Translations under genes and position numbers: made by a program | NCBI GenBank assembly: GCA_022566355.1 | Contig: JADFJB010000111.1 | Coordinates: 1-15,363, forward strand | Length of the DNA: 15,363 nt | Source: a candidate division KSB1 bacterium | Lineage (GTDB): Bacteria; Zhuqueibacterota; JdFR-76; DREG01 | Reading direction: 5' to 3' | Notes under the pieces: model-generated | The model's input: the letters and a program-made list of their open reading frames with translations, nothing else | What the model was told of the DNA's origin: nothing | Database searches by the model: none | Shown: positions 2,880-7,447 of the stretch, piece after piece | How positions within the stretch are numbered: position 1 is the stretch's first letter | Layout: each line of letters starts with the position of its first letter

Positions 2880-3281
2880 TTGCTTGATATAATTATAAGC
2901 GCCCTACTGACCATATTACTGCATGCTTGCCTAAAAACGATCGAATCGGGAAACATAAGTGCAATTTTTATTCAGGTTATAGATTCAACCAATTTTTTTA
3001 TTAAAATTATAACATTAAATATTTCAAACGTAAACCAATATTATCCTATGATACCCATTCTTCTAACGACGTTCATACCCGTAGTATTTTATATGGGAAT
3101 ATTCATCGTACTAGGTTTAATAGTAAAACCTATAACCCGATTTACAGGTTACGTATGCAAATTAATTTTCGAAAAAGAAAAATCACCATTTTTTCAACTT
3201 TCATTAATTTTGTCATTTCTTATTACCTTTATAAAAGCGTTATCACAATGGGAATGGTTTGTATATATTCTTAAAAATTAA
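2880..3281 (+). CDS. Hypothetical membrane protein, start uncertain
   Basis: No family recognised. From a TTG at 2880 the frame encodes 133 residues with three hydrophobic segments: about residues 3-18, 57-83 (ending GIFIVLGLIV) and 103-120 (FFQLSLILSFLITFIKAL). Short charged stretches such as FEKEKS separate them. The frame is open upstream to 2775 with no ATG or GTG, and the first internal ATG (residue 57) would remove the first membrane segment. The true 5' end is therefore either TTG-initiated or lost at a junction near 2840. The DNA is AT-rich. A plus-strand membrane protein of this kind is plausible, but nothing in the neighbourhood points to a function. Confidence 0.45.
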   Translation: MLDIIISALLTILLHACLKTIESGNISAIFIQVIDSTNFFIKIITLNISNVNQYYPMIPILLTTFIPVVFYMGIFIVLGLIVKPITRFTGYVCKLIFEKEKSPFFQLSLILSFLITFIKALSQWEWFVYILKN

Positions 3282-3386
3282 AAGATTGTTGTCAAAATAT
3301 ATAATGCTCTGAAGTACATCCAATTGCATTAGGAAAATACTTAATTAGTGAAATCCAAAACGGATTAATTTATAACCAGATCTGAT

Positions 3387-3392
3387 GAAGGG
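3387..3392 (+). promoter_or_regulatory. Shine-Dalgarno site for the CTG-initiated pentapeptide-TIR gene
   Basis: GAAGGG lies six bases before CTG at 3399. An in-frame TAA (3393-3395) sits between them, so translation in this frame cannot begin further upstream. The only other candidate start using this site, ATG at 3385, overlaps the site itself and runs into a stop after 11 codons. This supports the CTG at 3399 as the initiator. Confidence 0.6.
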
Positions 3393-3398
3393 TAAAAA

Positions 3399-4517
3399 CT
3401 GGCCAACTCCGAACATCTAAAAATTCTTAAACAAGGTGTAGAGGCCTGGAATAAGTGGCGGAAAGAAAATCCGGACATTATACCTGACCTAACAGGCGTA
3501 GACCTCATAGGAGCAAACCTCAATGATGCCAACCTAAGTAGAGCAAACCTTATACAAGTAGACCTCAAACAAGCAAACCTCTTTAGAGCAGACCTAACAT
3601 ATGCAAACCTCACAGAAGCAAAGCTCAACGAAGCAAACCTCAGACAGGCAAACCTCTTTAAAGCAGATCTCACACAAGCAAACCTCATTGGAGCAGTCCT
3701 CAATGGAGCAGACCTCAAAGGAGCAAACCTTAACGGAGCAAACCTCGAAGAAGCAAGTCTTTATGGAGCAAAACTCATAGGAGCGACCCTCATAGGATCA
3801 ATCCTCGCAAAAACAATCCTCTTAGAAGCAGACCTCACAGAAGCGAACTTAAAACAAGCATGGCTATTCGAGACTATTTTTTCAAATGTCAATTTATCGA
3901 ATGCAATAAATACAGATTCGTGTAAACATTTTGGCCCTAGCACTATAGATCATCGTACGTTAATAAAATCAGGCAATCTCCCGGTAAAATTCCTCCGTGG
4001 CTGCGGCTTGCCGGATTTCATCATTAAGAATATCAGCGTCTTGCGGGAAGACCCCATACAGTATTACTCCTGCTTTATCAGCTACTCAAGCAAAGACCAG
4101 GAGTTTGCGGAAAGACTCCATGCCGACCTACAGAATAAAGGGGTGAGGTGTTGGTATGCCCCGCATGATTTAAAAGGCGGTAAAAAGATTTATGACCAGA
4201 TTAACCAGGCAATAAGAACTTACGACAAGCTTTTACTGATCCTTTCTAAAAACAGTATGAACAGCGATTGGGTTGCCCAAGAAATTAAAACAGCAAGAAA
4301 GCGGGAAAAGAAAGAAGACCGCAAGATGTTTTTTCCTATTACATTAGTTAATCATACTGCACTGGAAAAATGGGATTTATTCGATGCGGCAACCGTTACC
4401 AATCTCGCCGATGAAGTTCGCGAATATTATATTCCGGATTTCTCAAATTGGAAAGACCATGATTCCTACAAAAAATCATTTGAACGGCTTCTCCGGGATC
4501 TGAAAGGAGAATCTTGA
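3399..4517 (+). CDS. Pentapeptide-repeat protein with C-terminal TIR domain, apparent CTG start
   Basis: The frame is open from a stop at 3393 to 4517 and gives 372 residues if read from CTG at 3399. No in-frame ATG, GTG or TTG occurs before 4008. The N-terminus (M)ANSEHLKILKQGVEAWN followed by ENPDIIPDL is the familiar leader of pentapeptide-repeat proteins, supporting 3399. Residues about 34-168 are roughly 27 tandem A(N/D)LxX pentapeptides, expected to form a right-handed quadrilateral beta-helix. A linker follows, then a TIR_2-type domain from about residue 222. It starts YYSCFISYSSKDQEFAERLH, continues with GVRCWYAPHDLKGG and LLLILSKNS, and ends near 355. E295 in SDWVAQEIKTA fits the conserved Glu that is catalytic in NAD-cleaving TIR domains. 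There is no signal peptide. Bacterial TIR proteins are often NADase effectors or scaffolds in defence or signalling; the role here is inferred. No partner gene is adjacent. Confidence 0.85.
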   Translation: MANSEHLKILKQGVEAWNKWRKENPDIIPDLTGVDLIGANLNDANLSRANLIQVDLKQANLFRADLTYANLTEAKLNEANLRQANLFKADLTQANLIGAVLNGADLKGANLNGANLEEASLYGAKLIGATLIGSILAKTILLEADLTEANLKQAWLFETIFSNVNLSNAINTDSCKHFGPSTIDHRTLIKSGNLPVKFLRGCGLPDFIIKNISVLREDPIQYYSCFISYSSKDQEFAERLHADLQNKGVRCWYAPHDLKGGKKIYDQINQAIRTYDKLLLILSKNSMNSDWVAQEIKTARKREKKEDRKMFFPITLVNHTALEKWDLFDAATVTNLADEVREYYIPDFSNWKDHDSYKKSFERLLRDLKGES

Positions 4518-4654: not shown

Positions 4655-4912
4655 ATGTTTCTAAATGTAAAAAGTGTTTCTTATTTAGGGGGATACAAAA
4701 TCAAATTAGAATTCAACGATGGTGTAATCAAAGATATTGATTTAAAAGATGAGTTATTTGGTGAAGTTTTTGAACCGTTGAAGGATGTTAATGTTTTTAA
4801 ACAAGTGAAAGTGAATTCAGAAATCAATACAATCGAGTGGCCTAATGGAGCTGATTTTTCACCGGAATATTTGTATGAAATTGGAGAAGAAATAATAAGA
4901 ACTGCTTACTAA
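4655..4912 (+). CDS. DUF2442 family protein
   Basis: An 85-residue protein with the full-length DUF2442 pattern: an N-terminal VKSV..LGGYKIKLEFNDG strand pair, DLKDELFGEVFEPLKD in the middle, and IEWPNGADFSPEYLYE near the C-terminus. The function is unknown. Family members are often encoded next to DUF4160 proteins in toxin-antitoxin-like pairs, but no DUF4160 gene is visible here, so it stands alone. A clear AGGAG lies five bases before the ATG. It follows the TIR gene by 137 bases, is probably expressed separately, and is followed by the palindromic repeat element. Confidence 0.85.
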   Translation: MFLNVKSVSYLGGYKIKLEFNDGVIKDIDLKDELFGEVFEPLKDVNVFKQVKVNSEINTIEWPNGADFSPEYLYEIGEEIIRTAY

Positions 4913-7237: not shown

Positions 7238-7447
7238 ATGAAATACATGGTCGTCATTGAGAAAGCGAAACGCAACTATAGTGCGTATGTCCCTGATTTG
7301 CCGGGCTGCGTTGCCGCAGCAGAAACTAAAAATGAAGTAATTGATCTTATCAAAGAAGCACTTCAATTTCATCTTGAATCTTTTACAAATGATGGCGAGC
7401 AAATTCCAGAACCGAATTCTTCAAGCACTTACATTGAAGTAACGTAA
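7238..7447 (+). CDS. HicB-like antitoxin-family protein (orphan)
   Basis: A 69-residue protein with the HicB/UPF0150 pattern: an N-terminal strand MKYMVVIEKA, then YSAYVPDLPGCVAAAET, then the helix IDLIKEALQFHLE and the dG..IPEP turn. HicB proteins normally neutralise the HicA mRNA-interferase toxin and carry a C-terminal DNA-binding domain. This is the short partial-RNase-H-fold version with no DNA-binding tail. No HicA-like gene with its conserved His is adjacent. It lies 19 bases after paaZ and 18 bases before the enoyl-CoA hydratase gene on the same strand, so it is embedded in a metabolic operon. It is either a solitary family member or the remnant of a pair. Confidence 0.8.
   Translation: MKYMVVIEKAKRNYSAYVPDLPGCVAAAETKNEVIDLIKEALQFHLESFTNDGEQIPEPNSSSTYIEVT

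Follow-up and report, generated by a model that had tools for sequence, protein, structure and literature searches.

Where does the gene that closes with the TGA at positions 4515-4517 begin, and what would its product do? Within the window (the whole stretch of DNA analysed here, 15,363 nucleotides), an open reading frame (ORF) list that allows only ATG, GTG and TTG as starts shows for this frame just 4008-4517, that is, 169 amino acids covering the TIR part. An earlier reading, made from the letters alone (the sequence-only reading), had placed the start at the CTG at 3399, joined a tract of pentapeptide repeats to the TIR domain, and warned that gene callers restricted to the three standard codons would lose the repeats; the ORF list behaves in exactly this way.

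Structural annotation

When read from CTG 3399, the plus-strand frame runs through 372 codons without interruption, and it is stop-free already from the codon after the TAA at 3393-3395. Two Pfam matches lie within it, one to the pentapeptide repeats (PF00805; 130.9 bits, cut-off 20.2, 1e-38) and one to TIR_2 (PF13676; 84.7 bits, curated cut-off 28, 9.4e-24), and because both fall in the same frame their combination is far beyond chance. The continuity of repeats and TIR domain described in the sequence-only reading therefore stands, whereas its figure of about 27 repeats, although it described a real tract, was slightly low: there are 28 consecutive units.

These units are tandem A(D/N)LXX pentapeptides forming a beta-helix, as indicated by the PF00805 score, the unit count and a fold match, and they leave a 15-base period in the DNA. 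When the window protein is aligned with 21 homologues, the leader shows the consensus MANxEHLxILKQGVxxWNKWRKEN, and the repeat tract varies in length. Judged by its sequence, the gene is intact, and its product couples a rod of repeats with a TIR domain of the kind that cleaves NAD. The coordinates of its parts are collected in Table 1. One should also be aware of a 117-aa antisense ORF on the minus strand (3365-3718), which is made by the repeat tract, is likely spurious and could mislead gene callers.

Table 1. Parts of the pentapeptide-repeat/TIR gene and its candidate start signals, in window coordinates.
Feature	Position	Strand	Basis
Pentapeptide-repeat/TIR gene, 372 codons plus stop	3399..4517	+	Open frame, Pfam, homologues
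GAAGGG, Shine-Dalgarno-like (SD), at -12 to -7 of CTG	3387..3392	+	Sequence, genome-wide G enrichment, duplex energy
CTG, putative start on the family's start column	3399..3401	+	Homologue starts
Leader, residues 1-28, two helices	3399..3482	+	Alignment, AlphaFold2 model
28 pentapeptide repeats, residues 29-168, beta-helix	3483..3902	+	Pfam, model, fold match, unit count
Conserved linker, residues 169-221, HxGPSTI...FLRGCG(V/L)PD	3903..4061	+	Alignment
TTG, first standard in-frame start codon, encodes linker residue 204, no SD; unlikely start	4008..4010	+	ORF list, alignment, duplex energy
TIR domain core, residues 222-317	4062..4349	+	Pfam, model, fold match, PDB sequence match
GAA, Glu295, aligned with the catalytic Glu of AbTIR	4281..4283	+	Alignment
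Conserved C-terminal tail, residues 318-372, DFSNWKDHDSY...RLLRDLK	4350..4514	+	Alignment

Choice of the start codon

No in-frame ATG, GTG or TTG lies upstream of the TTG at 4008. The CTG at 3399 falls exactly on the start column of the family, a position that among leader-bearing relatives is occupied by ATG in 37 and by GTG in 2-3, and by CTG only in the window gene. Relatives that deviate from this column begin one codon off or carry other N-termini, and in several homologues the column is the sole choice because a stop lies just upstream.

Start statistics, drawn from 408 kb of the genome, point the same way. GGAG, GAGG or AGGA stands before 43% of the starts that are unambiguous and before 11% of internal ATG, GTG and TTG codons, and the genome's own starts are enriched in G at -12 to -7, which is exactly where GAAGGG stands before the CTG. 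The predicted anti-SD duplex has an energy of -5.0 kcal/mol for CTG 3399 and of -1.5 kcal/mol for TTG 4008. The earlier proposals on this point, namely the missing standard codon, the well-spaced GAAGGG and a CTG that opens the family's usual leader, have thus all held up. Within the same 408 kb we found no other plausible gene with more than 100 codons ahead of its first ATG, GTG or TTG, the sole other match being antisense to FeoB.

Two further codons were considered as starts and rejected: the TTG at 4008, which lies without an SD inside the conserved linker motif FLRGCG(V/L)PD, and an ATG at 3385, which lies out of frame 14 bases upstream of 3399, also without an SD. The family start column, the linker position of the TTG and SD usage make the full-length reading well supported, and as far as alignment and base pairing can tell, it is the right one. 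CTG 3399, with GAAGGG ahead of it, is the most likely point at which translation starts, initiation at the CTG itself being a step that we infer.

One might object that the protein is encoded in full length behind a CTG that does not work, either because a recent A-to-C change has silenced or nearly silenced the gene or because the draft consensus is in error; in another form of the same objection, the A run at 3394-3398 was miscounted, and one extra A would put ATG 3385 in frame (MKGKKLANSEHL...). Either event, a recent point mutation or an error in the consensus, would be indistinguishable from a genuine CTG start, and close orthologues cannot confirm the codon because the TIR fusion is missing from the other genomes of the class. 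The aligned relatives all have ATG or GTG in the start column, CUG initiates poorly in E. coli (PMC11497404), the assembly is a draft of 213 contigs in which 16S was not found, and an ATG does lie close upstream. However, nothing else in the gene has decayed, since the other 371 codons are undamaged and keep the residues conserved in the leader, the linker and the TIR domain, and GAAGGG is positioned for the CTG, whereas ATG 3385 has no such signal; we regard a non-working CTG as a serious contender but lean against it. It is very improbable that translation starts at TTG 4008 and yields only the TIR part, with the repeats left untranslated. This TTG is the first in-frame standard codon, and a repeat-less linker-TIR gene does exist on a Skermanella plasmid, but a start at residue 204 would cut the conserved linker in two, the codon lacks an SD, relatives can be aligned over the leader and repeats at about 50% with no stop, and the Skermanella gene looks like a copy split by IS256.

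Functional annotation of the TIR domain

Across 22 aligned full-length sequences, residues F226, S228, D233, W252, G261, S283, S289, W291, E295 and E303 are invariant. The sequence-only reading had singled out E295 as a catalytic-type glutamate, and the alignment agrees: the residue sits in SDWVAQE, following an SxxW motif as is expected of a TIR NADase, and is matched by the Glu in DWTNYE of AbTIR, which we take to be catalytic. By sequence, the TIR domain is nearest to AbTIR.

The AlphaFold2 model (mean pLDDT 89.5, pTM 0.60) consists of a beta-helix plus a TIR domain, and it matches the TIRs of SPARTA TIR-APAZ and of Cat1 (VIA-align Z 14.2 for the latter). The overall TIR fold agrees with NADase TIRs, with low confidence at pocket residues 259-273. 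The pLDDT falls below 50 at residues 259-265 and 267-273, and together with the pTM this means that the model is poor for some of the NAD pocket and for how the domains are arranged; their placement relative to each other is given no weight here. Among the PADLOC TIR models, SAVED_TIR (4e-16) and TIR-Ago (7e-10) match, as do several ThsB models and, in Pfam, ThsB_TIR (PF08937, 1.3e-7). A viral fold library returned mostly pentapeptide-only matches.

Relatives and gene neighbourhoods

A single scan of genome contigs yielded 66 relatives, some 22 of which span the full length. The pentapeptide-TIR fusion is absent from the other 6 genomes of the class (7 in all), and strong matches occur in 4 other genomes among the 82 of the phylum, with the best full-length one at 52% identity; this scattered distribution suggests that the family has spread horizontally. 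In its own genome the window protein is the only TIR_2 protein found. Nine IMG/VR contigs, from a collection selected as viral, encode relatives, and five of these are confirmed by hallmark genes of phages close by: L106 has a terminase and a major head protein, L107 the small subunit of a terminase, L108 an endolysin, L109 a tape measure, and L111 an integrase, a terminase, an SSB and a primase. Neither plasmids nor the phage record collection yielded a full-length copy (at least 80% query cover).

On one contig, two pentapeptide-TIR copies lie near each other (L019 and L021), and on the Skermanella plasmid pSR-5 (L115, 853-4609) a pentapeptide gene is separated from a linker-TIR gene by two IS256 transposase genes, which looks like the splitting of a once fused gene. 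We found no study of the pentapeptide-TIR architecture in the literature, conflict-system surveys merely mentioning pentapeptide and TIR modules. The family, which is widespread across many phyla of bacteria and occurs on phages too, is apparently unstudied.

The search for neighbouring defence genes gave a divided answer. At two bacterial loci, a relative has a type IIG restriction enzyme (L009) or a DrmD-like, DISARM-like helicase (L014) nearby; in the window there are no defence or phage genes beside the gene, and among the 106 flanking proteins of homologues every family is seen 3 times at most, so that no partner recurs. The window gene is a solitary one, flanked by a small membrane ORF upstream (2880-3281) and a DUF2442 gene downstream (4655-4912), with FeoB-like and metabolic genes beyond.

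Several features of this surrounding DNA deserve a record of their own. The ORF directly upstream is an orphan of 133 aa with three hydrophobic segments and no family match. The DUF2442 gene is a lone one, with a weak match to the antitoxin DhiA that remains below cut-off and no toxin gene seen beside it, and a small ORF at 7238-7447 resembles HicB antitoxin by eye, an adjacent HicA not being seen. The FeoB-like ORF at 1-1072 (identified by eye) has a GC content of about 57% versus about 35% just after it, and an opposite-strand FeoB-like ORF (1290-2708) faces it; the step in GC may reflect a recent transfer or a chimeric contig end.

Proposed function

The reading that we favour, and hold to be reasonably probable, is that of a soluble single-gene TIR NADase effector, started at CTG 3399 and equipped with a beta-helix sensor or scaffold, which would stop or kill the cell when triggered by phage. 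The two-helix cap and the pentapeptide beta-helix would serve as the sensor or assembly scaffold, connected by the conserved linker to the C-terminal TIR; once TIR domains are brought together with other TIRs they would cleave NAD+, and its loss would cause the cell to stop or die before phage release. The NADase step is suggested by conserved residues and fold. Phage infection would be the most likely trigger, since such TIRs serve as antiphage effectors and phages also carry the family; a phage-borne copy would presumably exclude competing phages. Because CTG initiates weakly, little protein would be made, and a low level would suit a toxic effector.

The earlier suggestion of a candidate defence or signalling effector thus has indirect support from phage carriage, from the restriction and DISARM-like neighbours and from the antiphage NADase folds, and is weakened by the lack of defence neighbours in the window. 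The protein is probably a cell-suicide immune effector, for which we infer NADase activity, oligomerisation and a phage trigger.

TIRs can also be cyclases or pure adaptors, and both roles should be weighed. The domain might be a signalling enzyme that makes cyclic ADP-ribose, as ThsB does, and switches on a separate effector rather than killing by itself; the ThsB matches in Pfam and PADLOC speak for this, but with no recurring partner gene near homologues and none in the window we think it unlikely. Somewhat less likely still is a housekeeping or developmental signalling role in which the TIR is a protein-interaction domain with no immune function. Such a role would fit a window free of defence neighbours, and many pentapeptide proteins (HetL, MfpA) do serve other roles, but it accords poorly with an invariant E295, a patchy distribution and relatives on phages.

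Within the known TIR effectors, the gene is a member of a widespread, apparently unstudied group, and it is odd mainly in having a rare CTG as its only plausible start. If the favoured function is true, the family represents a TIR immune system made compact by having a single protein, with a beta-helix as its sensor. The CTG start illustrates how the sensor half can be lost in automatic annotation, and it allows one to test whether weak initiation limits a toxic effector.

Comparison with known systems

The closest fold is that of SPARTA TIR-APAZ (VIA-align Z up to 16.1, rmsd 2.5 over 132 residues), part of an NAD+-depleting antiphage effector. SPARTA has an APAZ and a short Argonaute, whereas the window protein has neither and carries a pentapeptide beta-helix as its N-terminal module; the PADLOC TIR-Ago models match the TIR part only, the rest being leader, repeats and linker, and the window's ORF list holds no Argonaute-sized neighbour gene. 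AbTIR and similar bacterial TIR NADases (7uwg, 8g83, 7uxr) are the best TIR sequence matches in the PDB (1.5e-8, 2.7e-8) but lack the repeats. Thoeris ThsB, which in one known case is triggered by phage capsid (PMC11312562), has a related TIR in a different architecture. A Thoeris operon was rejected, as no ThsA-type partner is seen in the window; a STALD search of the genome came back empty, but so did its controls, and it therefore carries little weight.

On the N-terminal side, NP275-NP276, HetL, Qnr and MfpA share the beta-helix of the repeats (Z about 20-27), and the window protein does not reach the curated cut-offs of the HetL, Qnr, MfpA and PipB models. Those proteins stand alone, whereas the beta-helix described here carries a TIR.

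The same WNKWRKEN leader and repeats also occur on ion-channel proteins, with Ion_trans_2 pores (L046, L048) or an Ion_trans match (L041) and, in all three, a GFGD filter-like motif. Because the leader was one search word of the scan for relatives, the count of such fusions is biased, though their existence is not. It is a tentative and rather doubtful idea that leader and beta-helix form a general sensor module to which different killing domains can be attached, either a TIR NADase or a pore like that of a potassium channel. This would be a one-gene immune family not yet described and found also on phages, with the CTG throttling translation in this genome. These channel proteins share leader and repeats with the window protein and place a potassium-channel-like membrane pore where it has its TIR domain.
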